A stretch of DNA of 28,257 bases from a virus: positions 1 through 28,257 of the IMG/VR virus record IMGVR_UViG_3300046514_000103; one strand, 5' to 3'. Made by a program: the position numbers and the translations under genes. The notes beneath the pieces are model-generated. The model was not told where the DNA came from. It made no database searches and was given only the letters and a program-made list of their open reading frames with translations. Shown here in pieces: positions 7,467 to 26,019 of this stretch (within the stretch, counting starts at the first letter, position 1; each line of letters starts with the position of its first letter).

Positions 7467-7877
7467 CTACGTGGTCGCCATGACGACGGCACCGGTGCAG
7501 GTGAACTTGACCTGCGTGTCGGAGCGGTCGCCGACCTTGCCCGAGAGGGGCATGTAGTCCATCAGGAGCGCGGTGGCGGTGAACGACGGGTTCGTCGTCG
7601 ACACCGTGGTGTTCACCGGCACGATCTTGACCGTAAAGCCGGTGCTTGCGAGCAGCGGCCACAACGTTGCGTTCACCTTCGACGCGGCGAAGTCCTGCAG
7701 GAACGTCACGGTGATCGTGTCCGAGCGGAGTCCGACCGCGTGCTGCGTTGCGGTAGCGCCCATCGCGGTGATGTCGACATCGTTCTGCGAGATAGCCACC
7801 TCGACCGAGTCGACGTGGTCGGTCAGGTCGACGGCGTTCACCGTCACCTGTGCGTTGGTCAAAATTACGACCCCCAC
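7467..7877 (-). CDS. Major tail (tube) protein
   Basis: This 136-residue protein starts at GTG 7877 behind a strong GAGGAAGGGG site. It has the compact beta-rich look of a siphovirus tail-tube subunit: VDLTDHVDSVEV near residue 17, TFLQDFAASKV near residue 59, GFTVKIVPV, then LLMDYMPLSGKVGDRSD near the C-terminus. It forms the tube through which DNA passes. It lies upstream of the chaperones and tape measure, in the expected order. A second copy of the same fold is encoded at 9326-10183, recognisable by the shared DHVDSV, FLQDF and PLS-x-KVGDRSD blocks. Confidence 0.75.
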   Translation of the reverse strand: MGVVILTNAQVTVNAVDLTDHVDSVEVAISQNDVDITAMGATATQHAVGLRSDTITVTFLQDFAASKVNATLWPLLASTGFTVKIVPVNTTVSTTNPSFTATALLMDYMPLSGKVGDRSDTQVKFTCTGAVVMATT

Positions 7878-7937: not shown

Positions 7938-8363
7938 CTAGGCGCCGCAGATGACGTACACGTCCCACTCCGCGCCGAGCACGGATGAGCCGTCGGAGCG
8001 CACATACTCCTGATAGGCGCGGCACTCCCTTACGTCCAGGTCGGAGCATGCCCCGCCCAGAGTCTTGTCCGACTCGATCGCGTCCTGCACCGACGACGCC
8101 GAGCCGGTGCCGATCATCTCGTCGAGCAGCTTCTGCGCCCCGATATCGGAGACGGCGCCGACGAACGCGAACACGACCATGTACCAGTTCGTGCTGCCGC
8201 CGCCCATCGCCTGCCCGTACTCGACACCTACGTCGGTAGACGGCCTGACCCAGATCGTGGGCGGCGTCGGGTTGCTCAACACGTAGGCCGAGACCTGCTC
8301 GACCCCGGCGACGGCCTGGAGGTTGGCGGCGAGGCCGGCGCGGATCGCGGCGAGTGAGGTCAC
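7938..8363 (-). CDS. Tail terminator-like / minor neck protein
   Basis: This 141-residue protein starts at GTG 8363, overlapping the connector stop by four bases (GTGA). The N-terminus (SLAAIRAGLAANLQAVAGVE) followed by VSAYVLSNPTPPTIWVRP and a later WYMVVFAFVGAVSDIGAQKL fits the alpha/beta layout of tail-terminator proteins that cap the tail tube and join it to the neck. It is followed after 60 bases by the major tail protein, as in many siphoviruses. The call rests on size, order and overall pattern; no catalytic or unique motif is present. The 60-base gap after it holds a short GCCCC...GGGGC inverted repeat of doubtful meaning. Confidence 0.55.
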   Translation of the reverse strand: MTSLAAIRAGLAANLQAVAGVEQVSAYVLSNPTPPTIWVRPSTDVGVEYGQAMGGGSTNWYMVVFAFVGAVSDIGAQKLLDEMIGTGSASSVQDAIESDKTLGGACSDLDVRECRAYQEYVRSDGSSVLGAEWDVYVICGA

Positions 8364-8965
8364 CCGCTCGGCCGCTCACGCTGGTAGTCGGCGACGAGGA
8401 ACCTGACGGACGGATCCGTGACAGCGAGGCGGGTGACGGCGCCGACGTCCATCCCGATCGCAACGACACCGAATGGCGCCTCCCGTGCGCGGCGAAGCAG
8501 TTGCGTGGCGAGGATCGTGACGGCCTCGACGATCGCGCCCGGCACCGCCGCCCAGCCGAACTTGCCGGTCACCTCGACGCTACGCGGCCACGGTGGTAGA
8601 GCCCTGCCCCACACGAGGTTAACGGTCGCGCGCGTCCACGGCCGGCCGTCTGAATCGGCGTTGTTCGGCTCGAGCACGAACCACTGGTTCAGCGTCCACG
8701 TCTCCTCGTACGTGCCGTCGCCGTTGCGGTCAACCTTCAAGCTCGTGAGCGTGATCAGGTCGTCGATCAGGCAGGTGCTGCCGGTCTGCGGCGTGTAGTG
8801 CCTCACCTGCGTGGCGTCCGCGTCCGGGTAGAACCGGCGGTTGCACGCGCCCTCGATGCCCCGGCTGGCCGCCTCGATCGCAGCGGACACGTCGTCTTCG
8901 GCGAACGTGGTGCCCGTGAGCTCGAGAGTGGCCTTGAGTTGCTCGTTGGTCAGGTAGACGGTCAC
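8360..8965 (-). CDS. Head-tail connector (adaptor) protein
   Basis: This 201-residue protein starts at GTG 8965 through a GTGA overlap with the upstream gene. The N-terminus (YLTNEQLKATLELTG, EDDVSAAIEAASRGIEGACN then RRFYP) is the characteristic helical start of phage head-tail connector adaptors that dock under the portal, including the conserved ending in R-x-F-P/Y. A beta region follows (WTLNQWFVLEPNN, RSVEVTGKFGW) and the C-terminus returns to helices (AVTILATQLLRRAREAPFG). In most siphoviruses this gene follows the capsid closely; here more than 13 kb of accessory genes lie between them. Function is well supported by the N-terminal pattern. Confidence 0.75.
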   Translation of the reverse strand: MTVYLTNEQLKATLELTGTTFAEDDVSAAIEAASRGIEGACNRRFYPDADATQVRHYTPQTGSTCLIDDLITLTSLKVDRNGDGTYEETWTLNQWFVLEPNNADSDGRPWTRATVNLVWGRALPPWPRSVEVTGKFGWAAVPGAIVEAVTILATQLLRRAREAPFGVVAIGMDVGAVTRLAVTDPSVRFLVADYQRERPSG

Positions 8966-9325: not shown

Positions 9326-10183
9326 TCACGAGGTGGCCTGCGTGATCGCGGTGACGGCCTGGAACGTTACGGGCGCATCGCTGCGGTCGCCGACCTTGGC
9401 GCTGAGCGGCGTGTAGTCCAGGACGATGCAGGTGGCGGAGAACAGCGGATTGGTGGCGCTGACGACGCCGGAGCGCGGCTTGCAGGAGACGGTGAAGCCG
9501 TTGCTCGACAGTAGTCCAGCGATAACGGCGTGCACCTTGTTAGCGCCGAAGTCCTGTAGGAACACGGCCTGGATCTGGTCGGTGCGTAGCGCCGGCGCAT
9601 AATGCAGCCCGGTGTCGCCGTAGCGGGTGACATCCATCATGCCCTGGTGGACGGTGATGGTTACGGAGTCGACGTGGTCTGAGAGGTCAACGCCTGCGAT
9701 GGTGAGGACGGCGTCTCGGAGAACGGAGAGTGGCGCCTGGACGGGAGGCGGGATCGTGCCGCCGGTTCTGGCACCCGAGCCGTAGAGGTGTGCGAGGCCC
9801 GCGCCGGTCTCGGCGTAGGTGAGGATCTTGCGTCCGGTGGCGTAGTCGCGGGCGGTGCCTGTACCAGTCTTCTGGTAGAGGACGCCGCTGCCGCCGAGCA
9901 GGTACTGCTTGGCACCTGTCGCGTAGAGCTGCGCGACCCCGGCGCCGGTCTTGGCGTAGGCGCCCGGGCTCGCCTGCTGGCGGAACGGCACCAGCGGCGA
10001 CAACGTGGAAAAATAGCCCGCCGCAATCGTCTTCGCTCCTGCGCTGTAGAGGTGGGCGACCCCGGCGCCTGTCTTTACGAACAGAGCCCTGCCGCCCGTC
10101 CTGGATCCGCGGCCGTACAGCTGCGAGGCCCCGGCCCCCCGCTCGCCGTAGATCACCTGCTTGCTGCCGTAGCCCTTAGGCAT
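9326..10183 (-). CDS. Second major tail protein paralogue with N-terminal repeat domain
   Basis: This is a 285-residue two-part protein starting at ATG 10183, immediately after the previous stop (TAGATG). Residues 15-146 contain five degenerate copies of the TGAGVAxLYxTGxK repeat that fills the protein at 12995-14416. Residues 155-285 are clearly related to the major tail protein at 7467-7877: GVDLSDHVDSVTITV, FLQDFGANKV, GFTVSCKP, VLDYTPLSAKVGDRSD, at roughly 40% identity by eye. It could be a minor tube subunit that displays the repeat domain on the tail surface, or a tail-tip tube component. Known tail proteins such as lambda gpV carry surface Ig domains, but at the C-terminus; an N-terminal repeat array is not familiar to me. 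Confidence 0.7.
   Translation of the reverse strand: MPKGYGSKQVIYGERGAGASQLYGRGSRTGGRALFVKTGAGVAHLYSAGAKTIAAGYFSTLSPLVPFRQQASPGAYAKTGAGVAQLYATGAKQYLLGGSGVLYQKTGTGTARDYATGRKILTYAETGAGLAHLYGSGARTGGTIPPPVQAPLSVLRDAVLTIAGVDLSDHVDSVTITVHQGMMDVTRYGDTGLHYAPALRTDQIQAVFLQDFGANKVHAVIAGLLSSNGFTVSCKPRSGVVSATNPLFSATCIVLDYTPLSAKVGDRSDAPVTFQAVTAITQATS
9746..10141 (-). repeat. Five degenerate 20-residue repeats in the tail-protein paralogue
   Basis: The coding repeats begin RGAGASQLYGRG, TGAGVAHLYSAG, TGAGVAQLYATG, TGTGTARDYATG and TGAGLAHLYGSG. They are separated by linkers of uneven length, including GGSGVLYQK. The DNA resembles parts of the 13127-14314 array: TACTGCTTGGCACC occurs in both, and a segment near 9867 reading GGTCTTCTGGTAGA recurs at about 14313. 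Confidence 0.85.
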
Positions 10184-10876
10184 CTACGTCATCCAGGCGA
10201 AACCGGTCTTCTGGTAGACGCTGCCGCTACCGGGCGCCTTGAACGTCGCGATCAGGGAAGTCCAGTTCTGTGTGTTGCTGAACGAAGGGTTGTTGTGGTA
10301 CGCCCCCGTGGCGGAGACGGTGAGGTCGCTGATCGCGACGGTCTGGTTCGCGGTGACGGTCTGCCGGACGGTGCCTGCCCCGCCGATTCCCGCCACCCAT
10401 GAGGGATTCAGAGTGTTGTCGTTCGTGTTCAGCCCGAACAGCAGCTCGTTCGCCTGCGTTGTCGTAGCGGTGGCGTTACTGTCGGCTGTGGAGCTCGTGG
10501 TGTCCCCCTGGTTCGAGGACGTCTTGTCAATAGGGTCGCCGGAGGTCATGGCGCCGCTGTACTCGGCCATACATGAGCGGATCGAGGCAGCTGCGCCGCT
10601 GATCCCCACCGTCACTGTCGTCGACCCCGCGCCCGCGTTCCATTTGTAGAAGATGTAGCCCTGGTGGCCGTCCGTGGTCTGCTGCTGCGTAACTGCCTGC
10701 GTCCAGTTGCCTGCGTTTACGTTGTCCGAGACGGTGACCGTGCGGCCGAGAGCGCCGACGCGAACACCAATCACGAGAAGCGACCCAACCGTGACAGACG
10801 CCAGATAGGTGTCCCCAGCCGACGTGACCCCCGTGGCATTGATCCCGGAGCCGTCCTGAATAAACGTGATCGCCAT
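10184..10876 (-). CDS. Adhesin-like beta-sandwich virion protein with repeat remnant at C-terminus
   Basis: This 230-residue protein starts at ATG 10876, coupled to the upstream stop (GTAGATG). It is rich in Thr, Ser, Ala and Gly and looks all-beta: AITFIQDGSGINATGV at the start, TVTVSDNVNAGNWTQAV, YIFYKWNAGAGSTTVTV and MAEYSGAMTSGDPID, then NPSFSNTQNWTSLIATFKAP near the end. This matches a jelly-roll or Ig-like domain seen in secreted bacterial surface proteins. The last residues GSGSVYQKTGFAWMT copy the VLYQKTG linker that precedes repeats in the two repeat proteins, then stop. It is probably a tail decoration or fibre component; no enzyme motif is seen. Confidence 0.55.
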   Translation of the reverse strand: MAITFIQDGSGINATGVTSAGDTYLASVTVGSLLVIGVRVGALGRTVTVSDNVNAGNWTQAVTQQQTTDGHQGYIFYKWNAGAGSTTVTVGISGAAASIRSCMAEYSGAMTSGDPIDKTSSNQGDTTSSTADSNATATTTQANELLFGLNTNDNTLNPSWVAGIGGAGTVRQTVTANQTVAISDLTVSATGAYHNNPSFSNTQNWTSLIATFKAPGSGSVYQKTGFAWMT

Positions 10877-12334
10877 CTACGAGTTGCTCTTTTCATACGC
10901 CCCGGCATCGAGGCTCGTAGCCACCACATCCGGCCGAGTGGCCCCGATGATGTCGATAACCGGGACGGCCGGCACCGATCCGGCTGGCACGAAATCAACG
11001 GTCGGCGACCCGGCCTTCTGCGTGAAGTTGTACGCCGGGTAAGTCGGGTCGACGTAGATGCCGCTCAGGGCGTTACCTGCCGAGTTGGTGCCGCTACATC
11101 CGGTCGGGCTGTTCGTGAAGATGTTGTAGGTGTAGGTGATGACGGTGAACGAGCTGACCTGCGTGGGGCAGTTCGAGCCGTCCAAAATGTTGCCGTAACT
11201 CGCGATCGCTGCGCACTTCGCCGCACCGCCGTTCCACAGCCCGTCGAATATGTCGCCGCCGTAATAGGAGTTGAACCGGACGGTCACGTCTTTGAGCGTG
11301 CCGAAGTCGCAGCCCCAGGAGATAGCGCCAATAGACCCACAGGGAGACCCGTGGTTCGAGCAGGGACGGTCGAAGATGTTGTTCTCGATCAGCATGTGGT
11401 CGAGATGGTCGTTGCTGCTATGCGGATGGAAGCTGATGTCTTGCTGGTCGTTGTTCGTGAACTTCACACGAGCCACGTAAGCGTAGGTTGTGTCTTGCCA
11501 GTGAATGCCCTCGATGTGACCAGCAGGGTTCGAGGTGGTGGTGTCGTGGATCGTGCCGCCGATGATGGCGACATGATCGGTGTTTATGTAGGCACCGATG
11601 TTGTTGATCGAGGCAGGGTCGCACGGCTGGATGTTGTTGCTCGCGTCCGTCGTCGGACCGATGTTGTCGTTGATCAGATACACCTGCGAGACGCCGCCCA
11701 GGTAGAAGCCGCCGAACGTGTCGTTCGACAGGATCTCGTTGTTGGGCTTCTGCTGATCGCAGTTACCGCCACCGTGGTTGCCGTCCCAAAAGAGCGTAAA
11801 CCCACCCGTGGAGGTGAAGCTGTCGATCCACACGTACGGGGCGTTGATTGTCATACCTGAAAGTGTCGGCGTGTCGCCTGTTTCGGGCAGATAGTGGATG
11901 CAGCCGGACAGGTTCTGGGTGACGTTGCTGGTCGGGAACGGTGCACCGTATTGACATGTCGAGCCGGCAGACTTAGCGTTCGCCCAGAAAATAGTCTGGT
12001 ACCCATAACTGCAAGTCGTCCCGCCGCCGCAGCCGACGCCGATGGTGTCACCGACCGATGCCAGTTGGTACGCCTTGCTGAGCGTCAGGCAGTCGGATGT
12101 GCCCCCCGTGTCCGGGTTGGCGATCAGGGAACTACTGCGGGTACAGGAGCCGCTGCTATCCGATCCGTTCTGCGCCACCCAGATGTTCGCCATCGCTGTC
12201 GACGTACAGCCGCCGCAGCCGCCGCCGGAGGCACCGCCGCCGACAAGGCCGCCCTGCCAGACGCCGATGCCGAGACCGATCGCGGCCGCGGCGAGCACCA
12301 CGCCGCCGATCCGCCGGAGACCGCCGCGCGCCAT
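10877..12334 (-). CDS. Right-handed beta-helix tailspike-like protein (putative polysaccharide-binding or -cleaving)
   Basis: This 485-residue protein starts at ATG 12334. After residue 48 (ANIWVAQNGSDSSGSC) it shows the layout of a parallel beta-helix pectate-lyase-like protein: a Leu-x-Ala-Tyr region (CLTLSKAYQLASVGDTIGVG), then many short strands with Asn/Asp turns (LINDNIGPT, HVAIIGGTIHD, MLIENNIFDRP, VTVRFNSYYGG). It ends in PDVVATSLDAGAYE, a common close of such domains. It is Cys-rich, unusual for a cytoplasmically assembled virion part. Residues 8-35 form a hydrophobic, signal- or anchor-like stretch (VVLAAAAIGLGIGVW) behind MARGGLRR. Phage beta-helix proteins often bind or depolymerise surface polysaccharide; catalytic residues cannot be assigned. 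Confidence 0.6.
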   Translation of the reverse strand: MARGGLRRIGGVVLAAAAIGLGIGVWQGGLVGGGASGGGCGGCTSTAMANIWVAQNGSDSSGSCTRSSSLIANPDTGGTSDCLTLSKAYQLASVGDTIGVGCGGGTTCSYGYQTIFWANAKSAGSTCQYGAPFPTSNVTQNLSGCIHYLPETGDTPTLSGMTINAPYVWIDSFTSTGGFTLFWDGNHGGGNCDQQKPNNEILSNDTFGGFYLGGVSQVYLINDNIGPTTDASNNIQPCDPASINNIGAYINTDHVAIIGGTIHDTTTSNPAGHIEGIHWQDTTYAYVARVKFTNNDQQDISFHPHSSNDHLDHMLIENNIFDRPCSNHGSPCGSIGAISWGCDFGTLKDVTVRFNSYYGGDIFDGLWNGGAAKCAAIASYGNILDGSNCPTQVSSFTVITYTYNIFTNSPTGCSGTNSAGNALSGIYVDPTYPAYNFTQKAGSPTVDFVPAGSVPAVPVIDIIGATRPDVVATSLDAGAYEKSNS

Positions 12335-12336
12335 TT

Positions 12337-12735
12337 CTAGTAGCGCCTGAATGCTGGGTAGACGTTCACGGTGCCGGCGTCCGAGATCAGCCTGACCGTC
12401 GACAGGTTCGTGAGCTCGAACGTGCCGCCGGCGGGAATGCAGATGCCTAGCCCGCCCGCGGTGGGGACGGTGCCGTCCTCGGTGAAGTAGATGTTGGCGC
12501 CGCCTGGAGGCACGGACAGGAGCGCGTGCGTGGCGCCGCTTGGGATGCCGCCCGTAATCGAGGACAGCAGCGCGGCGCTGCCGGTCACGGCGAGCGTGTG
12601 TCCGGACGCGAGCGGGGTCGGCACCGTGGTCGTTGCCGCGGTGACCATCGAATAGTTGCCGTCCGCGTTCAGGTACACCATGAACGAGCGGGCTACGCCG
12701 CTGGAGTCGAACAGTGAGATCGTGGAGAGGGCCAT
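12337..12735 (-). CDS. Small virion structural protein, function unknown
   Basis: This 132-residue protein starts at ATG 12735 behind an excellent ACAGGAGGCTAG site that overlaps the upstream stop. The first part (STISLFDSSGVARSFMVYLN) and the second (IPSGATHALLSVPPGGANIYF, then EDGTVPTAGGLGICIPAGGTF and STVRLISDAGTVNVYPAFRRY) look like small beta-barrel capsid- or tail-decoration proteins. In those, Ala-Leu-x-x-Val-x-x-Gly-Ala-x-Ile/Val-x-Phe strands precede a Gly-rich loop and a final strand ending in Tyr. Its neighbours are all probable virion surface proteins. I do not recognise a named family. Confidence 0.65.
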   Translation of the reverse strand: MALSTISLFDSSGVARSFMVYLNADGNYSMVTAATTTVPTPLASGHTLAVTGSAALLSSITGGIPSGATHALLSVPPGGANIYFTEDGTVPTAGGLGICIPAGGTFELTNLSTVRLISDAGTVNVYPAFRRY

Positions 12736-12993
12736 CTAGCCTCCTGTCGCCTTATGGTGGGCTCGATACTCGGCCCGGAGCGCGAGCCCGGTCGGCGTTA
12801 CTACCGACGGGTACTGACTCGCATCAAACCAGTACACCTCTAGCCGTTCCGCCTCTTTGGGATTCGACCGCTTGAACTGCTTGTAGAGCGTGCCGGTGAG
12901 GAGGTATGTATGTGACTCTAGAAGGTCAGCCGCGATCGCCGTCAGCGGGCTGTCCTGCCGGGGTAGCGGCACGAGCGGGGATACGGATCTCAC
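12736..12993 (-). CDS. Small unrecognised protein in the decoration cluster
   Basis: This 85-residue protein starts at GTG 12993 with GTAGGAGGC seven bases upstream, overlapping the end of the repeat-protein gene region. It is mostly helical by composition: LTAIAADLLESHTYLLTG, then LYKQFKRSNPKEAERLEVYWFD, and a C-terminal TPTGLALRAEYRAHHKATGG. The pattern of charged and aromatic residues is unlike its Gly/Thr-rich neighbours, so it may be an assembly factor or adaptor for the surface proteins on either side. No family is recognised. Confidence 0.6.
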   Translation of the reverse strand: MRSVSPLVPLPRQDSPLTAIAADLLESHTYLLTGTLYKQFKRSNPKEAERLEVYWFDASQYPSVVTPTGLALRAEYRAHHKATGG

Positions 12994-12994
12994 G

Positions 12995-14416
12995 TCAGCC
13001 TCCTACAAGGACGCGGGTGCGGCTCGAGGACGGCGGGCTGTTGCTGGTGCCGTCGCCGCTCTCAGTCTCGGTGACGCTGTCGTTCAGCACGAGTTCATCG
13101 ACGCCCGACCCGGTGCTGGCGCGGGTGCGGCCGTAGACGGGCGAGCCGGCACCGGAGCGGATGACGAGACTGGCGCCGTTGCCGTACAGCCGGGCGATGC
13201 CACGGCCGGTCTCGACGACCAGGGCGGCATCAGCGCCGGAGACGTATAGCCGAGCCAGGGTCGCGCCGGTCTCGACGAACGTGCCGGCTTTGACGCCGGT
13301 GGCGTAGAGCCGGGCTGTCCCGGCGCCTGTCCTGGCCCTGGTGTTGAGTTTCGCGCCGGTGGCGTACAGCTTGGCGGTGCCCGCCCCGGTGCGCGCCCGG
13401 ACGTTGAGCTTCGCGCCGCTGCCGTACAACTGGGCGACGGCAGGTGCCTTGCGGTTGAACAGCGACGCGTCCGCGCCTGTCGAGTAGAGCCTGGCTACCG
13501 CAGCGCCGGTCTTGCTGTAGACCTGGCCGCCCGACGGGATGTACTGCTTGGCACCCGTACCGTAGAGCCGCGCGACACCGGCGCCGGTCTCGTTAAGCAG
13601 GAGTTGGTCGGCGCCCGTCGAGTACAACCGCGCGACTCCCGCGCCGCGCTCGCCGTAGGTGACGACCTTGCCGCCGGTCGCGTACAGCTTGGCGGCGCCG
13701 GCGCCTGTCTCGACGTAGGTGAGAACTTTCCCACCGGTCGCGTACAGCCTGGCTACGCCGGCGCCGCGCTCCTGGTAGGCGACGACCTTGCCGCCCGAGC
13801 CGTAGAGCTTGGCGACTCCTGCGCCGGTTTTGCCTAGCGTCGCTGCGTCCGCGCCGGTCGCGTACAGCCTGGCGACCGCGGCCCCCGTCTTCGTGTAGAC
13901 GACGCCGCCGCTCGGGATGTAGAGCTTGGCCCCCGAGCCGTAAAGCTTGGCGACACCCGCGCCCGTCCGGTTGAACAGCGACGCGTCCGCGCCCGACCCG
14001 TAGAGCTTCGCTACTCCGGCGCCCGTCCGGTTGAACAGGCTGGCGTCTCTGCCAGTCGCGTAAAGCCTTGCGGTGCCCGCGCCCGTCTCGACGAACGTGG
14101 ACGCTTTCGCTCCGGTCGCGTAGAGCTTCGCAACGCCCGCGCCCGTCTCTGTGAATGTCGCCGCCTTGGCGCCGGTGGCGTACAGCCGGGCTACTCCTGC
14201 GCCGGTCTTCTGGTAGGTGAGGGGGACAAGGTGGCCGTACATGCCCGCGCCGGTCTCGACGTAGGTGACAGCCTTGGCGCCGGTCGCGTATAGGCGGTTG
14301 ACGCCCGCCCCGGTCTTCTGGTAGAGAACCCCGCCGCCGCCGAGCGTGCCGAGCGGCCGCCGGTGCCGCCTGAGGTTTACCGCTCGAGAGCTGCGCGGGC
14401 TCTGGCGGATCGCCAC
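12995..14416 (-). CDS. Protein built of about 19 tandem 20-residue TGAGVARLYATG repeats
   Basis: This 473-residue protein has residues 1-29 basic then glycine-rich (RQSPRSSRAVNLRRHRRP, GTLGGGG), residues 35-430 as about 19 repeats, and residues 431-473 as a Ser/Thr-rich tail (ELVLNDSVTETESGDGTS). The consensus is T-G-A-G-V-A-[RK]-L-Y-[AG]-[TS]-G-[AG]-[KD], then six variable residues such as AATFTE, ASLFNR or VVTYGE. Positions 1 and 11 are nearly always Thr/Ser followed by Gly. Two copies carry a 6-residue IPSGG insertion. The period, hydrophobic Leu-Tyr and Gly turns suggest a stacked beta-hairpin or solenoid fibre. It lies among virion surface genes and is probably a fibre or surface decoration. 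I know no named family for this repeat. Confidence 0.8.
   Translation of the reverse strand: MAIRQSPRSSRAVNLRRHRRPLGTLGGGGVLYQKTGAGVNRLYATGAKAVTYVETGAGMYGHLVPLTYQKTGAGVARLYATGAKAATFTETGAGVAKLYATGAKASTFVETGAGTARLYATGRDASLFNRTGAGVAKLYGSGADASLFNRTGAGVAKLYGSGAKLYIPSGGVVYTKTGAAVARLYATGADAATLGKTGAGVAKLYGSGGKVVAYQERGAGVARLYATGGKVLTYVETGAGAAKLYATGGKVVTYGERGAGVARLYSTGADQLLLNETGAGVARLYGTGAKQYIPSGGQVYSKTGAAVARLYSTGADASLFNRKAPAVAQLYGSGAKLNVRARTGAGTAKLYATGAKLNTRARTGAGTARLYATGVKAGTFVETGATLARLYVSGADAALVVETGRGIARLYGNGASLVIRSGAGSPVYGRTRASTGSGVDELVLNDSVTETESGDGTSNSPPSSSRTRVLVGG
13127..14314 (-). repeat. Tandem array of about 19 coding repeats, 60-base unit
   Basis: Units are mostly 60 bases, with longer units of 78 and 84 and one short unit of 48 bases. 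On the plus strand each unit shows a GCGACxCCxGCGCCGGTCT-like core. Third-position differences between units are common, so the protein repeat is conserved more than the DNA, though several neighbouring copies (for example those ending ASLFNR near 13975-14035) are nearly identical in DNA and look recently duplicated. Confidence 0.9.
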
Positions 14417-14419
14417 GGG

Positions 14420-14899
14420 TTAGCCGATCTCGCGAACCTTGAGCCCGGCGTTCATCGTCAGCGCGTCAGCCGGGGCTACCGGCAGCCTGACGTAGATCGG
14501 GAGTGCCTGCGTGCCGTAGGGGATCCAGGAGAACGACGGCGGCGACCAGATGTACGGGCTGCGGACGTTCCAGCCGTCGGCGTGGATGATGTACGGCGTG
14601 CCGACCGTGCCCATCGTCGTGTTGCGGCACTCGGCCGTGAACCCCGCGGCGGCGTCGCCGGGATTGAGCCTGCCGACGGTCGCCGACGCCCCGCCCGAGC
14701 CGGACGTGGTGTAGCCGACGATGATCTGAACCTGCAGCACCTCGTCCTGCGCGTCCCCGAAGTCGGAGGTCTGCCAGATCGTGAGCTCGTCGATAAATAC
14801 GGGCTTGTCGTCGGCGGGCGCGATCTCGAAGATGTCGATGGCGGTGGTGACGGCGGTGGCCGCGTCCCAGGTGATGACGTATGGCCTTCCTGGCCCCAT
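14420..14899 (-). CDS. Virion structural protein, unrecognised
   Basis: This 159-residue protein starts at ATG 14899 behind TAGGAGACCCTG. It looks all-beta: YVITWDAATAVTTAIDIFEI, then DKPVFIDELTIWQTSDFGDA, VLQVQIIVGYTTSGSGGAS, PYIIHADGWNVRSPYIWSPP and a final ALTMNAGLKVREIG. The many Trp and Tyr in loops and the short strands suggest a jelly-roll or head/tail decoration subunit. This pattern (ADDKPVFIDELTIWQTSD) recurs in small phage structural proteins of unknown role. It lies between the LamG-like gene and the repeat protein. Confidence 0.6.
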   Translation of the reverse strand: MGPGRPYVITWDAATAVTTAIDIFEIAPADDKPVFIDELTIWQTSDFGDAQDEVLQVQIIVGYTTSGSGGASATVGRLNPGDAAAGFTAECRNTTMGTVGTPYIIHADGWNVRSPYIWSPPSFSWIPYGTQALPIYVRLPVAPADALTMNAGLKVREIG

Positions 14900-14908
14900 C
14901 AGGGTCTC

Positions 14909-16183
14909 CTATCGGTAGACGACGCGACGGCGAGGGATAAGGCGGCGGGACATGTCGATCGTGTCGGACACGACGACAGCCGGGGTGTAGTCGACGTACA
15001 GACCCACGAAGCACGCCATCGCGATCCGGGTCGATGACGTGACCTGCGTGATCCGGGCGACCGGTGCCGTGCCTTTCGTGACCGTCGGCGCCTCCGTGAT
15101 CGTGCCGGGCGACCACTTCCAGCCAGTCGGATAGGTGCTGCCAGCGTTGCCCTGCCAGAACGCCGCAGCCGTCCCAGCCGCCCCCAGGTTGACGTTGGTG
15201 ATCACCGGGTTCGACGCGACACCGATCGTCCCTAGCTTCGCCGCCGTAGTAACCGGGGCGGCAGTTGCTACCCATGGGATCACGGCGTTGATCGTGTCAC
15301 TTGCGCCAATTCCGGCCGCCGTGTACGTGGTCAAGTTCGCGTCGAAGTTGGCGTTGGCGGCGGCGGTCGCATTCCTGATCTGCCCGGTGTCGGCACCGAC
15401 GCCGCCAAGGTCTGCGATCCCCACAGGCGGCCTGTTGTTGATCGCATCCCAGCCCGAGCCGCCCTCGGCCGTGTTGTTGCCGAGCACCCAGCCGGTGCCG
15501 ACCGCGCTATCGGAGGTCGGCACAAGCATGACCACCTTGCCGCTACCTGGCCACGTATTGTTGAACGATCCTGTCGAATCGTTCAAAACCGCATCGTCGG
15601 CATAACAGATCTTCGAGGCGCCCGGCGCCGAGATCCAGCCGCAACTCCAGACACAAGCGGAAACGAGAACCGTCAAGCCCGACGCCGAAGCGACCGAGAC
15701 CCCGTCCAACTGCAACTCGCAATCGGTCAGATTATTACTGCCGTCCGTGATCCCTTTCATCTCCAGGCGGTAGTACGTACCCGTGGCGATCGTCGCGGCG
15801 GAGTCGGAGCCGATCTGGGTACCGGCCGTGTTATTCCACAGTTGCAACTTGCCGCCTGTGGTCAGGCGGGCACTGATACCCAGAGTTCCACCATTGTTGG
15901 CGACACCCATCACCTGAGCCGTGGTTCCGGGCAAGGCCGGGAACATCATGTACACCCGCCAAAACATGGTCTTGCTAACTAACGAGATTTGCGCGAGAGG
16001 GACTACCGTCAAGTTGCCGGCAGTCGAGTCGAATTTGGCGCATCCGCTGCCGGTGCGCTGGTTCGACGCGTCCCTGGTGACCGTGCCAGTGCCGAAGATG
16101 TTGCTCCCGTTTGGATTCTCCGGCCCGACAGCCAAAGCCCTGGGCTGATCGACCTCGTAGCCGATCGTAATCAGCCTAGCCAC
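14909..16183 (-). CDS. LamG/concanavalin-like virion surface protein
   Basis: This 424-residue protein starts at GTG 16183. Residues about 30-205 look like a LamG-type jelly roll: SGCAKFDSTAGNLTVVPLAQ, TMFWRVYMMFPALPGTTAQV, RLTTGGKLQLWNNTAGTQIG, TGTYYRLEMKGITDGSNNLT and CELQLDGVSVASASG, then KICYADDAVLND. The second half (residues 210-400) is another beta-rich region ending in YVDYTPAVVVSDTIDMS and a basic RRLIPRRRVVYR tail. LamG domains in phage proteins usually bind sugar or serve as oligomer surfaces. It lies downstream of the glycan module, in a row of probable decoration genes. Ligand unknown. Confidence 0.65.
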   Translation of the reverse strand: MARLITIGYEVDQPRALAVGPENPNGSNIFGTGTVTRDASNQRTGSGCAKFDSTAGNLTVVPLAQISLVSKTMFWRVYMMFPALPGTTAQVMGVANNGGTLGISARLTTGGKLQLWNNTAGTQIGSDSAATIATGTYYRLEMKGITDGSNNLTDCELQLDGVSVASASGLTVLVSACVWSCGWISAPGASKICYADDAVLNDSTGSFNNTWPGSGKVVMLVPTSDSAVGTGWVLGNNTAEGGSGWDAINNRPPVGIADLGGVGADTGQIRNATAAANANFDANLTTYTAAGIGASDTINAVIPWVATAAPVTTAAKLGTIGVASNPVITNVNLGAAGTAAAFWQGNAGSTYPTGWKWSPGTITEAPTVTKGTAPVARITQVTSSTRIAMACFVGLYVDYTPAVVVSDTIDMSRRLIPRRRVVYR

Positions 16184-16299: not shown

Positions 16300-16737
16300 C
16301 TACCCACCCAAAATGACCGTCGGCGTCACCTTGATCTGATCCGACGAGTTGATTGTGACCGCTGTCGTGTCGTCGAAGTTCGCGGCGAAGTACGCCTTCC
16401 CGACCGTCAGCGAGTTGCCCAGCCAGAACCCGTTGAGCGCGCCGCCCGTGTAGGCGGCGGTAGCGACCGGGAACGAGATCTGCGCGCACGCGGACGTCCG
16501 TCCGGAAGTGGTCGAGCCGATCGCGCCCCACGACGCGCTCGAGATGGTTTGCCGCGCGTAGGCGCCCGCACCCGGCTCGGTGTACGACAGCGCCACCGAC
16601 GCCGACGTGCCTACGGTCGATGCGGTGAACGTGTTGAACAGGGCGAGCCAGGTGTTGACCGGCGCGGTGCCGGACGTGGCGAACCCCGCGTTCGCGAGCA
16701 CCAGGTCGATGCCCTCGTTGGGCCAGATTTCTGCCAT
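16300..16737 (-). CDS. Virion tail/decoration protein, unrecognised
   Basis: This 145-residue protein starts at ATG 16737 with a strong AAAGGAGG site. The opening (AEIWPNEGIDLVLANAGFA) followed by WLALFNTFT and ALSYTEPGAGAYARQTISSA matches a common small phage structural protein that begins with an N-E-G-x-D-x-x-L motif and has a central E-P-x-x-x-x-Y-A-R-Q segment. Those are found near tail fibre genes. The rest is beta-rich, with GGALNGFWLGNSLTVGKAYF and TTAVTINSSDQIKVTPTV at the end. It is the first gene of the surface-protein group after the sugar module. Confidence 0.65.
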   Translation of the reverse strand: MAEIWPNEGIDLVLANAGFATSGTAPVNTWLALFNTFTASTVGTSASVALSYTEPGAGAYARQTISSASWGAIGSTTSGRTSACAQISFPVATAAYTGGALNGFWLGNSLTVGKAYFAANFDDTTAVTINSSDQIKVTPTVILGG

Positions 16738-16751
16738 TCAGACCGCCTCCT

Positions 16752-16949
16752 TTAGGCGATAGGGATCATTGTGGGTCGCCGATCGCCGGCGGCCTTACAC
16801 TTCGAGCAGTAGTACCTGTCTCGGCTCAACCAGAGGATCGTGCGGAGCTCGCCGCACTCCGAACAGACGGTGATCGTCACCGGGTTGTCGTGGCTGTTCG
16901 GGAGTTCGATCGCCGGGTGGCCGGTGATCTCAGGTGGCGGCTGGCTCAA
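16752..16949 (-). CDS. Small zinc-ribbon protein
   Basis: This 65-residue protein's most likely start is TTG 16949, overlapping the glycosyltransferase gene by 20 bases; GTG 16880 would give a shorter protein. Residues 29-51 carry two Cys pairs, VCSECGEL and YYCSKCKA, spaced as in a zinc ribbon. The remainder is polar. Such proteins bind metal and often nucleic acid or protein partners, but no specific role can be read. It lies between the sugar module and the surface-protein group. Confidence 0.6.
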   Translation of the reverse strand: MSQPPPEITGHPAIELPNSHDNPVTITVCSECGELRTILWLSRDRYYCSKCKAAGDRRPTMIPIA

Positions 16950-17691
16950 GCTCCGGCGCCTTCAACCCGATGTAGATCTCGTTCTCGCCGTCGGCGCCGC
17001 CGTGGTCGATCTTCACCATCAGCATCCCGTCCCGCCACTCGGGCCACAGGTACGCCTGCCCGATGTGGCCGAGCAGCGCGTCCGGGTCGCACCAGATGTC
17101 GTAGTCGTGCGCCCGCACCTTGCGGCAGAACTCGTAGTCCTCGTTCAGGTAGACGCCGTCGGTGCTCTCGAAGAACGGGAACCCGATGTCGTCGAGGACA
17201 CGGCGGCGGACGAGCATGCCGGCGCTCCCGGACGCCATCACCGTGAACAGTTCTCCTGGCACCTCGTGGAGTTGGTATGGCATCCAGCCGGGGTAGTCGC
17301 GGCCGAGGCGCTCGTCGTGGAACACCGATTCCTCTTTGGCGATCGTCAGTGTGTACGGCGGGTTGCGTTTGACGCCGAGCGGCACGACGACGTCGACGTC
17401 GTCCTCGAGCAGCCGGACGAGCAGGTCGCCGGGGAAGCGGTGGTCGTCGCCGAGGATCCACGCCCACTCGTGCTCGGGCGGCATGTCCATGATCGCCATG
17501 TTCAGGTTGTCGGTGATCGACGCGGAGCGGCGCATCAGGACGCCGGAGCCGGGCGGCGTGGCGAGGTTGAACAGGTCGATGACGAAGTCGGGGTAGCGGA
17601 GCTGGTCGCCGATCGGGATGATGACGCTGCCCGGCGGCTGCTTCCTCGCCCGGTCTTTAGGCGGCATGGCCGTGGGCGGCGGCACGATCAA
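16930..17691 (-). CDS. GT-A-like glycosyltransferase
   Basis: This 253-residue protein is most likely read from TTG 17691, with GTG 17685 as an alternative. The fold resembles a GT2-like glycosyltransferase: SVIIPIGDQLRYPDFVIDL at residues 22-40, SITDNLNMAIMDMPPEHEWA, then WILGDDHRFPGDLLVRLLED at 78-97, where GDDH takes the place of the usual D-x-D metal motif. The later part has GSAGMLVRRRVLDDIG, FESTDGVYLNEDYEFCRKVR (the acidic E-D-Y-E typical of the acceptor side) and ending KAPELEPAAT. It would transfer a sugar from a nucleotide-sugar to an unknown acceptor. It is third of three such genes in the operon. Confidence 0.7.
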   Translation of the reverse strand: MIVPPPTAMPPKDRARKQPPGSVIIPIGDQLRYPDFVIDLFNLATPPGSGVLMRRSASITDNLNMAIMDMPPEHEWAWILGDDHRFPGDLLVRLLEDDVDVVVPLGVKRNPPYTLTIAKEESVFHDERLGRDYPGWMPYQLHEVPGELFTVMASGSAGMLVRRRVLDDIGFPFFESTDGVYLNEDYEFCRKVRAHDYDIWCDPDALLGHIGQAYLWPEWRDGMLMVKIDHGGADGENEIYIGLKAPELEPAAT

Positions 17692-17700
17692 GGAGGGAGC

Positions 17701-18546
17701 TCATACCGCCGCCTCGTCGGCCTCGACGACGTCGGTTTCGTCGTCGAACTCGGGCGGGTCATGGTTCGCGAGCCACTCGGCCCGCGTCTCCTCCCGCATC
17801 GCGTAATAGCCTTTCTGCGTCTCGCGCCGGGTCTTCGGCCTGTCCTCCGGCCGATGGTAGGAGACGAGGTCGCGGCCGAGGTCGCAGGTGGGCACGTCCT
17901 TGTCCCAGTTCGGCCCGCGCACCCACTCGCGCTTACCGGCGGCGCCCTTGACGCTGTAGAGCCAGTGCTGCGGGCCGACGCGGAGTGTCGGGTTCCACCG
18001 GAAGATATTGCGATCCTTGTACGTCCACTCGCTGTCGCAGTCACGGTCGCGCACGTACTCGGACAGCCCGAGCGGCGTCGGCACCTCGAGCCCCATCCAC
18101 TCCTGGACGCCGGTGTCGTCGAGCATGTCGCGACCGTCGAGGACGGTGTAGGTGGCGACGTTCAGGTCGGTGGCGGCGAGGCGGGAGCGGGCGAGCTCGG
18201 GGTCGACCTGGAGGATGCACTGGTCGGCGTCGAATACCAGCACCCAGTCCTCGTCGGTCAGTTCGAGCGTGCCGGCGAGCCGAAGTAGCTGGTTGCGCTT
18301 CGCCAACTCGTTCCCCCACCAGATCGAGGTGGGCCTGTAGATGATCGACGCGGCCCCGCCTGCTTCGGCGGCGTGCATGATCGCCTCTGCCTCGCGCGGG
18401 TGGCTGCGCGCACGAGCGCCGGGGGTGAGCGAGTAGGCGCCGTCACAGGCAACGATCGTGTCGCAGATGCGGGCGAAGCCGCCCACGGCGGCGGACAGCC
18501 AAGACGGGCTTTCCATCCACCAGTTCAGCAGGCCGACGACCTTCAA
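17701..18546 (-). CDS. GT2-like glycosyltransferase
   Basis: This 281-residue protein starts at TTG 18546, overlapping the methyltransferase stop by four bases (TTGA) with AAGGAG well placed upstream. Residues 1-45 (KVVGLLNWWMESPSWLSAA, TIVACDGAYSL) give the Rossmann-like nucleotide-sugar binding start, and WVLVFDADQCILQVD at 101-115 carries a D-x-D metal-binding motif. NELAKRNQLLRLAG at 79-92 is a common feature of such enzymes. The C-terminal half has REWVRGPNWDKDVPTC and VSYHRPEDRPKTRRETQKGY, likely the acceptor-binding part. The sugar, acceptor and linkage are unknown. Confidence 0.75.
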   Translation of the reverse strand: MKVVGLLNWWMESPSWLSAAVGGFARICDTIVACDGAYSLTPGARARSHPREAEAIMHAAEAGGAASIIYRPTSIWWGNELAKRNQLLRLAGTLELTDEDWVLVFDADQCILQVDPELARSRLAATDLNVATYTVLDGRDMLDDTGVQEWMGLEVPTPLGLSEYVRDRDCDSEWTYKDRNIFRWNPTLRVGPQHWLYSVKGAAGKREWVRGPNWDKDVPTCDLGRDLVSYHRPEDRPKTRRETQKGYYAMREETRAEWLANHDPPEFDDETDVVEADEAAV

Positions 18547-19178
18547 TCCACGCTCCTTTCGAAGAACCTGACGTGCGACGGCACGCCCTGCTCGGAGTAC
18601 CAGGCGTGCCTAACCTTCCAGCCCGCCTTTAGCCATCTCTGAACGAACTCGTCTAGCGACAACTCCAACACGTGCGTCGTGGTCGAGCCGTTCCAGGTCT
18701 GCCCGACATCGTCGAGCGGCACGTCCACGTAGGCGTAGTCACAGTCGAGCGCCGCGATCAGCGCGTCCAGGTGCTGCTCGGTGAGATGTTCGAGCGAGTG
18801 GGAGGCGATGAACGCGTCGCAGGGGACAGAGTAGGGGCCGTCCGCCCATAGCCAACCATCATCGATACTGAACGCGTAGGAGGAGTGGTAACAAACCTGC
18901 GGCACATCGGCGAGTTCGTAGTTCCACCAGATACCGATGCCGAAACGATCAGGGAGCATGGCGGCGGCGAGCGCCCCGTCCCAGCCGCCGAGCTCGACCA
19001 CCCAGCCGGGCTTGCACCAGTCGAGGAACGCGGCGACCTGCTCGGCGTCCCAGTAGTTCTGCTCCGGGTACTCGCGGGCGAGTAGGTCGTAGAACTCGCG
19101 GTGCGCCTGGTAGGGCATGCCGTCGCGGTAGCGCGTGCGGTAGTCGTCGAGAGCGGCCACGTCGATCACGTGAAGCAT
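18543..19178 (-). CDS. Class I SAM-dependent methyltransferase
   Basis: This 211-residue protein has an ATG at 19178; GTG 19169, which overlaps the upstream stop as GTGA like its neighbours, is an equally likely start. VVELGGWDGALAAAML at residues 60-75 is SAM-binding motif I and DAFIASHSLEHLTEQHLDAL at 121-140 is the motif with E-H common in type-11 methyltransferases. The C-terminal TTTHVLELSLDEFVQRW and SEQGVPSHVRFFERS fit the rest of the fold. It probably methylates a sugar or another small group within the same pathway as the neighbouring glycosyltransferases; substrate is inferred from context only. Confidence 0.75.
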   Translation of the reverse strand: MLHVIDVAALDDYRTRYRDGMPYQAHREFYDLLAREYPEQNYWDAEQVAAFLDWCKPGWVVELGGWDGALAAAMLPDRFGIGIWWNYELADVPQVCYHSSYAFSIDDGWLWADGPYSVPCDAFIASHSLEHLTEQHLDALIAALDCDYAYVDVPLDDVGQTWNGSTTTHVLELSLDEFVQRWLKAGWKVRHAWYSEQGVPSHVRFFERSVD

Positions 19179-19438
19179 CTCTCCGGCGGTTCCTCAAGGA
19201 AGGCCTGCGGGCGACTGGATCCCGTATAGGCGAGTTCCCCCGTGTGGCGATAGGTAGCGATGATCCTGGCGATCTCATCCGCCTGCTCTGCTTCCGTCCA
19301 GGTTCCCTCGCACTCGAGTTCGCTAAGCGCCCGCAACTTCATAAGCAGACGATGAGTTGTGAGAAGCGCGCCTCCCTCGTGAAGGATCTCCCGAAGTAGG
19401 CGGCGAACTTCGTCATTGGATATATCGCGGTCGATCAC
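19166..19438 (-). CDS. Unrecognised small helical protein in the glycan module
   Basis: This 90-residue protein is read from GTG 19438, which overlaps the upstream glycosyltransferase stop by four bases (GTGA); a longer in-frame start would intrude on that gene. Sequence is largely helical and charged: RDISNDEVRRLLREILHEGG, THRLLMKLRALSELECEGTW, EAEQADEIARIIATYRHTG, then SSRPQAFLEEPPERCFT. No motif is recognised. The location between a glycosyltransferase and a methyltransferase suggests an accessory role there, or none. Confidence 0.6.
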   Translation of the reverse strand: MIDRDISNDEVRRLLREILHEGGALLTTHRLLMKLRALSELECEGTWTEAEQADEIARIIATYRHTGELAYTGSSRPQAFLEEPPERCFT

Positions 19439-20070
19439 GTCAGCACCACCTCCTGCTCGAGCCCGCACGGCTTCGCGTCCCGCTCATCCTCGCCGAACAC
19501 CCGGGCGTGCCGCCAGTGATACATGAACCCCTCGCGGGCGGCGACGATCGGCACCGCGTCCTCCTGCAAGCGGGCGGACGTCCAGAAGTCCGACGCGTAG
19601 CCGGGTGTGCCGAAGCACTCGAACGGATGCTTCAGCCACAGGTCGCGGCTCATCCCGGTCAGGCTCATGCCGGTGAACCACGTCGGGATCACCGGCTCCG
19701 GGTAGCTGACGCACTCGGCGTACTGGCGGAACGTGTAGGCGTGCTCGAGCGGCCCCGGCTTCAACGGCTCGCTGGTCAGGTTGACCGTCCACTCGGTGTG
19801 CGAGCCCTGGCTGTAGCCGGTGACGACCGGGTGGTCGCCGGAGTCGCGCAGGCGGCGGACGGCGTCGAGGGCGGGCTTCCGGACGATCACGTCGTCGCTC
19901 ACCACCCAGAGCCAGTCGAAGTCGTAGCCGAGCACGGCCGGGAACGCGTGGTCGGCGATCCCGCGCTCGGTGTAGCCGGTCATCCACAAGGTCGGGATAT
20001 CGAGTTGCTTGATTGAGTCGAGACATTCGGGGATGTCGCGGGCGTGCATGACGACGAGCGCGTCACGCAC
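19435..20070 (-). CDS. GT-A-like glycosyltransferase
   Basis: This 211-residue protein starts at GTG 20070. RDALVVMHARDIPECLDSI opens a nucleotide-sugar-binding half, and FDWLWVVSDDVIVRKPALDA at 51-70 holds an S-D-D-x-I/V motif in place of D-x-D, common in small glycosyltransferases of phages and surface-glycan clusters. WFTGMSLTGMSRDLWLKHPF around residues 131-150 and FWTSARLQEDAVPIVAARE around 162-180 resemble the acceptor and catalytic side. It is one of three such enzymes in the module. Donor and acceptor are unknown. Confidence 0.7.
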   Translation of the reverse strand: MRDALVVMHARDIPECLDSIKQLDIPTLWMTGYTERGIADHAFPAVLGYDFDWLWVVSDDVIVRKPALDAVRRLRDSGDHPVVTGYSQGSHTEWTVNLTSEPLKPGPLEHAYTFRQYAECVSYPEPVIPTWFTGMSLTGMSRDLWLKHPFECFGTPGYASDFWTSARLQEDAVPIVAAREGFMYHWRHARVFGEDERDAKPCGLEQEVVLT

Positions 20071-20134
20071 TGAGCCGCCACCACGTCTTCCCGAACAGAA
20101 CCCACCACGTGCCGCCCACCTGAACGATCGTCAC
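20063..20134 (-). CDS. Possible 23-residue Trp-rich peptide
   Basis: Minimal ORF starting at GTG 20134, overlapping the upstream stop as GTGA and ending in TGA that itself overlaps the next GTG by eight bases. The peptide VTIVQVGGTWWVLFGKTWWR is amphiphilic and has four Trp. Evidence is the unbroken chain of stop/start overlaps and the lack of any other gene in this short space. It is too short to rule out chance. Confidence 0.35.
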   Translation of the reverse strand: MTIVQVGGTWWVLFGKTWWRLSA

Positions 20135-20271
20135 GACCGCGCCAGCGCGATCTCGCAACGGATGAACTCCGCGTAGAGCCGGGCGGTGCGCCTACACCAC
20201 CGGACACGGCACGGCGGACACGGACAGCAGACATTGCACGGGTTGTGGCTCTCACGCTCGAAATCGGTCAC
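20131..20271 (-). CDS. Small cysteine-rich protein
   Basis: This 46-residue protein starts at GTG 20271, a GTGA overlap with the upstream gene, and ends at 20131. The core PCNVCCPCPPCRVRWCRR has six cysteines within 18 residues and could bind zinc or another metal; the rest is polar (RLYAEFIRCEIALARS). It opens with the same VTDx start as the preceding membrane peptide. Function unknown; its place among the glycan genes gives no direct clue. Confidence 0.55.
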   Translation of the reverse strand: MTDFERESHNPCNVCCPCPPCRVRWCRRTARLYAEFIRCEIALARS

Positions 20272-20366
20272 GGCCTGCCCCACTTCCGCCACCTTCTCGC
20301 CACATCGGCGAGTAGGAACGCGCACCCGGCAAGGACGAGCCCGATGAAGACCCACCAGTCGGTCAC
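20268..20366 (-). CDS. Single-helix membrane peptide
   Basis: This 32-residue protein starts at GTG 20366, overlapping the deacetylase stop as GTGA. Residues 4-20 (WWVFIGLVLAGCAFLLA) form one transmembrane helix, followed by a basic RRWRKWGRP tail that would sit inside the cell. The basic tail and size resemble small membrane anchors or scaffolds. Its place between an acetyl-group enzyme and glycosyltransferases may mean it tethers them to the membrane; that is inference. Confidence 0.55.
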   Translation of the reverse strand: MTDWWVFIGLVLAGCAFLLADVARRWRKWGRP

Positions 20367-20986
20367 GGCTTGGCCGCCTCCACCTTCCGCACGCGGGCGG
20401 TAACGTTGGCTGGCCACCACCACCACTCCGGGTGACAGTTCACCTGCACCGGCCCGCCGGCCGCCAACATCTCTTCCGGCGACTCCCGCCATACGCCGCG
20501 CGAGTCGGCCACGTACCTGTCGGCCCACTGCGGCGCGAGCGCGTGCTCGAACCCTGGCACGTCGCGCCAGTAGACGTTCCGAGGCGGCGCGTGGAACGCC
20601 ACCCGGCGTGTCACGTCCAGCCCGCCCTCCTGAAACAGCAGCCAGTCCCACTCGCACGCACGCCGCATCGACTCCGTCGAGACCTGTGAGCCGCGCCCGA
20701 GCTCCAGATCGACGTGCATGCCGAGCGTGTGGCCGTACCCGATGACCTCCTTGAACAGCTGGCTGGTCTTCGTTCCGAACGGGTTGTAGAAGTCACCGCG
20801 CCCCATCACGTAGTAGGTGGACCGAATGCCGAGCCGGTGCTCCAGTTGCGCCATCTTCAGGGCGCATTCGGGGTCGAAGTCGATGTCGTGGCGCCACTCC
20901 ACCTCCGGGTTGTCGGTGGCAAGCAGCCGCTCGAGCCTGGCGATGGAGAAGTCGTGGTCGAGCGCGGGGACGGTCTGGGCGGTCAC
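20363..20986 (-). CDS. Polysaccharide-deacetylase-like protein
   Basis: This 207-residue protein starts at GTG 20986 through a GTGA overlap. It has the compact carbohydrate-esterase 4 (NodB-like) layout: RHDIDFDPECALKMAQLEHR at residues 32-51 contains an H-D-I-D motif and leads to LGIRSTYYVMG at 52-62. GHTLGMHVDLE at 85-95 is the second conserved block and FHAPPRN at 131-137 the third. The end VQVNCHPEWWWWP at 180-192 fits the last. These enzymes remove N-acetyl or similar groups from sugars. Members of this subfamily often lie in surface-glycan gene clusters, matching the neighbours. I could not confirm every metal ligand. Confidence 0.75.
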   Translation of the reverse strand: MTAQTVPALDHDFSIARLERLLATDNPEVEWRHDIDFDPECALKMAQLEHRLGIRSTYYVMGRGDFYNPFGTKTSQLFKEVIGYGHTLGMHVDLELGRGSQVSTESMRRACEWDWLLFQEGGLDVTRRVAFHAPPRNVYWRDVPGFEHALAPQWADRYVADSRGVWRESPEEMLAAGGPVQVNCHPEWWWWPANVTARVRKVEAAKP

Positions 20987-21777
20987 CGGGCCGTGAACTT
21001 ATCCCAGCTGCCGTCGGCGATGTCGCCGTGCGAACCCGCGGTGGCCGCGCGATAGTCCGCATCCGTCCAACTACCGTCGGCGATATCACCATGCGAGCCG
21101 GAATGCTCGAGCGTCGCGTGTGGGCCACACCATCCCGCTTCGCGATCCAGACGATCCAGCCGCCGCTCCTCGATGTCCCGCGCCGGGTTACCCACCACGG
21201 TCACCCCCGCCGGCACATCCCGGATCACCACAGCCCCCAGCCCGCAGCGGCCATCGTCGCCGACCTTTACGTGGTCGGTCAGCATCGCCGCCGGGCCGAT
21301 ATGGCAGCGGTCGCCGATCTCGCACGACCCGCTGATCTGGCTGTTCGCGATGATCAGGCAGTGCTCGCCGACCAGACAGTTGTGGGCGATGAACACGTTC
21401 GCGTCGATCTTCGTGCCCGCCCCGATCACCGTGTCGCGATACCGGCCGCGGTCGATGACGGTGCCCGCCCCGATCTCCACATGGTCGCCGATCACCACAC
21501 CGAACGGGTGCTCGCGGCGCTGCCACGACCGCCGCCCCGGATCCGTGCACGGCGGGCACAGCGTGTCGTGCGTGCAGAAGTCGCACTCCCACACGTAGCC
21601 GAAACCCTCCCAGCCGATCGACACGTTCGGGCCGATCGTCACGTGCCTGCCAACAGTGACGCAGTCGGCGATCCACGCGGTGTGATGAATGCGCGTGCCC
21701 TCCATCTCGGACGGCTCCCGCGCAGGCCAGTTCTCATACGCCTGCGAGTCGAGGTACGGGAACTTCGGTTCGGTCAC
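20983..21777 (-). CDS. LpxD-like left-handed beta-helix acyltransferase with Cys4 insertion
   Basis: This 264-residue protein starts at GTG 21777 by a GTGA overlap. Residues about 35-200 are hexapeptide repeats (VTIGPNVSIG, VVIGDHVEIGAGTVIDRG, TVIGAGTKID, HVKVGDDGRCGLGAVVIRD) forming a left-handed beta-helix. The block IDANVFIAHN with His132 matches the catalytic AHN of LpxD, and WEGFGY then VEIGAGTVIDRG match its conserved blocks. It would transfer an acyl group from ACP or CoA to an amino- or hydroxy-sugar. Cys65, 68, 74 and 77 sit in an insertion between the FGY and VVIG blocks, like a zinc knuckle. The C-terminus repeats GSHGDIADGSW twice. A lipid-A role is unlikely here; a sugar acyltransferase is preferred. 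Confidence 0.75.
   Translation of the reverse strand: MTEPKFPYLDSQAYENWPAREPSEMEGTRIHHTAWIADCVTVGRHVTIGPNVSIGWEGFGYVWECDFCTHDTLCPPCTDPGRRSWQRREHPFGVVIGDHVEIGAGTVIDRGRYRDTVIGAGTKIDANVFIAHNCLVGEHCLIIANSQISGSCEIGDRCHIGPAAMLTDHVKVGDDGRCGLGAVVIRDVPAGVTVVGNPARDIEERRLDRLDREAGWCGPHATLEHSGSHGDIADGSWTDADYRAATAGSHGDIADGSWDKFTAR
21004..21099 (-). repeat. Duplicated GSHGDIADGSW tag at the acyltransferase C-terminus
   Basis: The 11-residue GSHGDIADGSW occurs at residues 227-237 (21067-21099) and again at 248-258 (21004-21036), separated by ten residues. The two 33-base copies differ at about six positions, all of them synonymous, so the peptide has been kept while the DNA drifted. Confidence 0.85.
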
Positions 21778-24704: not shown

Positions 24705-24716
24705 AGGGTTTCCTCC

Positions 24717-26009: not shown

Positions 26010-26019
26010 CCCTCTCGGG

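Follow-up and report, generated by a model that had tools for sequence, protein, structure and literature searches.

An uncultivated tailed virus of bacteria was found to encode a 473-residue protein built from 19 tandem copies of a 20-residue unit, and a shorter array of the same unit is fused to one of its two major tail proteins. The sequence analysed (hereafter, the window) is a whole IMG/VR virus record of 28,257 bases, and all window genes described below lie on its minus strand. With a probability of about one-half, we consider the array to be a calcium-free, basic, two-sheet β-solenoid rod on the exterior of a siphovirus, acting both as a modular stalk and as a surface that binds the host envelope.

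The gene for the free repeat protein (12995-14416) starts with GTG and ends with TGA. Its product comprises a variable N terminus (residues 1-34), the 19 units (35-422), and a conserved C-terminal segment outside the repeat (about 420-473), with the pattern ...PVYGRTR-STG-G...SRTRVLVG. Unit starts run from residue 35 to 403, with spacings of 20, 16, 20 (four times), 26, 20 (five times), 26, and 20 (five times). A preliminary description of this DNA had put the number of copies at about 19, and this figure held: identity within the array at a lag of 20 residues was 0.46, higher than in any of 1000 shuffles (mean 0.11, maximum 0.16). Two 26-residue units and one 16-residue unit were likewise found as described, but the supposed long unit is simply the final unit, which continues into the C-terminal tail. 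A shorter period had been overlooked. Identity at a lag of 10 residues was 0.23 (shuffle maximum, 0.16), whereby each 20-residue unit can be seen as a degenerate pair of 10-residue halves (TGAGVAKLYA and TGAKAATFTE).

Column statistics were taken over 60 distinct 20-residue units, drawn from four relatives as well as the window. Gly12 is present in 100% of units, Leu8 in 97%, Gly2 in 93%, and Tyr9 in 92%, with Tyr or Phe at position 9 in 59 of 60; the Leu-Tyr pair, initially called invariant, is thus nearly so. The claim that position 1 stays Thr was looser, as Thr1 is found in 72% of units, although most carry Thr or Ser at positions 1 and 11. Position 7 is Lys or Arg in 56 of the 60 (93%). 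The free protein as a whole is strongly basic, with 57 Lys and Arg residues against 21 Asp and Glu, and contains no Cys.

Relatives were sought by scans of 2.9 million viral contigs. The free repeat protein was found in L009 (the same virus, 100% identity), L010, L011, and L012, and in the more distant L040, and the repeat-bearing tail protein was present additionally in L013-L017; among the contigs scanned, the repeat is confined to these few related uncultivated viruses. The number of units differs between them, with 20 in L010, 15 in L011, about 20 in L012, and, counted by eye, about 14 in L040. Compared with three of these relatives, the gene gave dN/dS values of 0.30-0.38 (0.28 for the C-terminal 170 residues, which are 81% identical to those of L011), as is expected of a real gene under purifying selection. 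Conservation among relatives is highest at the end of the array and in the C-terminal segment. These values bear on whether the repeat might be a GC-rich tandem DNA array that is open by accident. The window is high in GC and holds many spurious overlapping open reading frames, and tandem DNA repeats do occur; against this, the protein is kept in four other virus contigs at DNA identities down to 70% (dN/dS 0.28-0.38 in the three tested), and the unit is also found fused to a tail domain. The substitution pattern already contradicts a chance origin, which we regard as very improbable.

The repeat had been called unfamiliar, and it stayed so in database searches. Only chance-level matches were obtained with Pfam, PHROGs, NCBIfam, and phmmer against the PDB, and tblastn against 50,697 named phage records gave no convincing relative; a match to Salmonella phage 9NA (E 4e-3) was set aside as short and of low complexity. 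The L040 protein likewise had no match among named phages, 84,980 prokaryote species, represented by one genome apiece, yielded no relative, and a viral fold library returned weak, mixed matches only. A profile search, proposed in the preliminary description as a check, matched no named family; a profile of five homologues hit Legionella IcmE/DotG (E 0.002), which was put down to shared Gly/Ala-rich composition.

For structure prediction, six units (13544-13903) were folded in register by AlphaFold using an 18-row alignment, giving a model with two β strands per 20-residue unit at a pLDDT of 91.2 and a pTM of 0.83, scores to be read knowing that repeat alignments can flatter solenoids. The best VIA-align match of this model was an RTX β-roll (7usl; Z 13.0, 109 residues, 2.7 Å), and it also matched the Escherichia coli CsgA fibril (Z 11.9, 8.2 Å), the FHA β-helix (Z 11.4), and an antifreeze β-helix (Z 10.9). 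Z was at least 8 for 72 of 292 chains, and the matches listed were largely solenoids and β-helices. Foldseek TM-scores were low, so that the two-sheet solenoid class is better supported than any single relative. A full-length model built from four sequences was weak (pLDDT 56, with 60-79 in the repeats); the best match of this low-confidence model, P. korlensis CsgA (Z 25.1, 284 residues, rmsd 8.3), stood apart from its other matches.

On the six-unit model, the repeat is likely a parallel two-sheet β-solenoid. This agrees with the earlier suggestion that a β-solenoid could be formed, and the prediction yielded a folded model (pLDDT 91, pTM 0.83) rather than a disordered chain; stacked hairpins, offered as the alternative, are not favoured, given that the best structural matches are parallel solenoids. 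One unit would make one rung, consisting of a strand (VA[RK]LY[AG]), an arc ([TS]GA[KD]), a variable strand, and a second arc (TGA[GA]). At about 0.48 nm per rung, 19 rungs would give a rod only about 9 nm long, to which the word fibre applies loosely. From the alternation of residues along the strand, Ala6, Leu8, and Ala/Gly10 would face in and Val5, Lys/Arg7, and Tyr9 out, so that one face of the solenoid would carry regular columns of Lys/Arg and Tyr.

The RTX β-roll (e.g. the block V domain of adenylate cyclase toxin) is of the same two-sheet β-roll class, and the phage half repeat xGxGxxxLx resembles the RTX motif GGxGxDxUx. The phage half repeat is 10 rather than 9 residues long and has no Pfam match, and the position of the calcium ligand is occupied by Ala, Thr, Asn, Gly, or Ser, never by Asp. 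Curlin units are 23 ± 5 residues in length, with two strands, X-G-X-X arcs, and flanking Asn and Gln (PMC10192328). The phage unit shares with curli CsgA a strand-arc-strand-arc rung of similar length and two pseudo-equivalent half repeats, with TGAG and TGA[KD] supplying the two X-G-X-X arcs and the predicted model the two strands. It differs in being 20 rather than 23 residues long and basic, and it has neither Asn/Gln ladders nor a Pfam curlin match; no column of Asn or Gln bounds the strands as in the curlin N-x-Psi-x-Psi-x-Q motifs (PMC10192328). Furthermore, no secretion signal was seen, and the gene lies in a phage structural cassette. With the sequence hallmarks of both families absent, the repeat resembles RTX and curli proteins but is a member of neither. 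Nor are there collagen-like Gly-X-Y triplets, as the period is 20, the half period 10, and lag-3 identity near background (0.085).

The preliminary description had also overlooked what is now the best clue to place and function, namely the occurrence of the same repeat on a tail protein. The 285-residue product of 9326-10183 carries about five units at its N terminus (residues 8-145; E 5.9e-13 in a repeat search), followed by a major-tail domain (about 150-285) that matches phrog_4574 (E 4.3e-18, residues 161-281). A second, plain major tail (tail-tube) protein of 136 residues, without the repeat, is encoded at 7467-7877 (phrog_4574, E 8.5e-27), in the canonical place, following the tail terminator. 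The decorated copy has a tail domain about 50% identical to this plain protein; the virus therefore has two tail-tube paralogues, only one of which bears an N-terminal repeat arm. The decorated gene departs from the customary order of tail genes in sitting upstream of the head-tail adaptor. Free and tail-fused arrays are consistently paired in L010, L011, and L012, and L040 has the free protein without any tail fusion.

Immediately upstream of the decorated gene, a 230-residue virion-type protein (10184-10876) has a half repeat, YQKTG, at its C terminus (GSVYQKTGFAWMT). Both genes are in the same frame, with a TAG stop followed at once by ATG (10184-10186; also L010:4027-4032), and in L011 their equivalents form a single 494-residue open reading frame (9466-10950). 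A single-sequence scan for homologues of the 230-residue gene gave none beyond the same virus. The start at the junction has no visible Shine-Dalgarno sequence, which makes coupled reinitiation or readthrough likely. Zero-gap stop-start junctions recur in the window (12736/12735, 10877/10876, and 2856/2855, besides 10184/10183), and in L040 a 229-residue homologue overlaps the downstream repeat gene out of frame (ATGA); for these reasons, coupled reinitiation is the simpler explanation, and stop-codon readthrough, raised by the fused L011 frame, is the less favoured alternative. Such abutting cassette genes may help whole modules to be swapped gene by gene.

The neighbourhood of the repeat gene is a virion structural cassette, in keeping with the initial impression of a row of probable virion surface genes. 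A head module (22339-27701) comprises the large terminase (26229-27701), portal (24717-26009), and major head protein (22339-24117), and the tail terminator and head-tail adaptor lie at 7938-8962. The repeat cassette falls between the major head protein and the adaptor, an interval of about 13 kb in the window against about 0.5 kb in Rhodococcus phage Madraxi. Within it, a 145-residue fibre-type protein (16300-16737) matches PF23140 (podophage GP4 fibre I gp80) above the gathering score (E 2.4e-8), and two proteins of 159 and 424 residues (14420-16183) have no family match. The repeat gene is followed by genes for an 85-residue protein (12736-12993) and a 132-residue protein (12337-12735), the latter conserved with L011 and L012. 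The motif SPLVPL of the 85-residue protein recurs as SPLVPF midway along the decorated tail protein, and SPLVP[LF] is also seen in L010 and L012. Next is a probable β-helix surface protein of 485 residues (10877-12334) with a weak choice-of-anchor Q match (E 0.0017). A run of sugar-modifying genes (16930-21777), coding for glycosyltransferase-like proteins and a hexapeptide-repeat acyltransferase-type protein, falls inside the structural operon; their products could modify the virion or the host surface.

Comparison with L011 showed a mosaic pattern. The tail terminator and head-tail adaptor are 100% identical between the two viruses (the adaptor at the nucleotide level), and the tail domain of the decorated protein is 99% identical in amino acids, compared with 81% for its repeats and 67% for the free repeat protein, which places the repeats in a fast-exchanging surface cassette. 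Values of dS rise sharply at the same places as protein divergence, so that module exchange is involved and not only selection at the amino acid level. The most divergent cassette gene is that for the 485-residue protein (37% amino acid identity), which has diverged although neighbouring head-tail genes are identical; it is a good candidate for a receptor-binding or depolymerase component. In L012, the free repeat gene is shifted relative to its neighbours. A domain of about 190 residues interrupts the tail arm, between repeat units, in L010 (4030-5760), L013, L014, and L015. The L010 insert gave no match in a Pfam search and resembled window 14909-16183 only at E 0.05; both may be of jelly-roll type, and a laminin-G-type fold for the insert is a tentative reading. 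Trp-rich inserts (WGDAW..xPWGG and SWFDP..NWFDWGPF) were seen within array arcs or ahead of the array (L012:12375-13535, L010:4030-5760, and the N termini of the L010 and L011 free repeat proteins) and are possible binding loops. Among named phages, the closest relatives of the tail domain come from Rhodococcus phages REQ1, Madraxi, Shagrat, and Jflix2 (40-43% identity), suggesting an actinobacterial host; comparison of the portal gave no clear host signal. The match to these phages covers the tail domain only, and Madraxi has neither the repeat arm nor the 13-kb cassette.

Decorated tail-tube proteins are known from siphophages, including SPP1 gp17.1 (with an FN3 extension), λ gpV, T5 pb6, and YSD1_22, all of which combine a major-tail domain with an additional external β domain (PMC8718954), an arrangement that 9326-10183 would share. 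SPP1 also has two tail-tube forms in one phage, and the FN3-bearing subunits of its mixed tube are proposed to touch cell-wall carbohydrate through weak binding (PMC8718954). The SPP1-type extension is C-terminal, Ig-like, and made by frameshift; that of 9326-10183 is an N-terminal, predicted repeat solenoid on a separate paralogous gene. The appendages reviewed are C-terminal Ig folds, and contacts from ring to ring can be made through the N termini of tail-tube proteins (PMC8718954), for which reason an ordinary tube ring may be unable to accommodate a solenoid at the N terminus.

We propose, at the probability given above, a short, rigid, strongly basic rod outside the siphovirus particle. 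From the shorter array on the second tail-tube protein, some tail-tube (or neck) rings probably bear solenoid arms; the decorated protein might take its place in the tube, at one tube end, or in the neck, and the free 473-residue protein might form a separate appendage or be stacked onto these arms. A place for the appendage on the virion, more exactly on its tail or neck, is probable. Since the arrays carry other domains, either fused or inserted, and near-identical phages exchange the whole cassette, the solenoid is most likely a modular stalk and binding surface. The stalk would bring envelope-binding domains to the cell, and the contact surface would meet the host's anionic wall or surface polysaccharide; binding to the envelope is suggested by these features, and no known binding motif was found.

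Capsid decoration or head fibres are often encoded in the interval from the major head protein to the head-tail adaptor, and this is where the repeat gene lies, beyond the major head protein and the sugar-modifying genes and ahead of the adaptor. It is conceivable that the rod decorates the capsid and that the repeat has been put to a second, independent use in the tail-fused array, as the free protein of L040 with no tail fusion would allow. In the window, L010, L011, and L012, however, the repeat is joined to a major-tail domain, which points to the tail, and Pfam, PHROGs, and NCBIfam revealed no capsid-binding domain in the free protein, leaving a head fibre a distinctly weaker proposition than the tail- or neck-associated rod. 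Rather less likely is a flexible, Thr/Gly-rich spacer whose threonines are glycosylated by the neighbouring phage glycosyltransferases and which would shield the virion rather than grip the host. The Thr or Ser at positions 1 and 11 would provide sites, and glycosyltransferase-like genes lie just upstream in the window, L011, and L012, with one also in L040, but these may act on any virion or host molecule, and the strict 20-residue period, the near-invariant Leu-Tyr, and the confident folded model favour a folded rod. Glycosylation and a solenoid are compatible rather than exclusive. We consider it improbable, although somewhat less far-fetched than a chance repeat, that the free protein and the tail arm stack end to end through their open edges in the manner of curli, giving non-covalently polymerised tail whiskers of adjustable length on a functional-amyloid principle.

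The proposed solenoid rod adds a new, sequence-unrelated (and predicted) solenoid repeat to the parts that phages use on their surfaces. A solenoid with neither calcium nor cysteine, able to fold in the cytoplasm, could serve as a rigid display scaffold. The link to a duplicated tail protein is of more interest than the repeat itself, suggesting that a duplicated tail-tube protein can become the carrier of long modular arms, unlike the C-terminal Ig decorations described so far. Array length and cargo vary while the tail domain stays fixed, a natural experiment in the swapping of phage contact surfaces, and the second tail protein probably displays swappable host-gripping parts on the particle.
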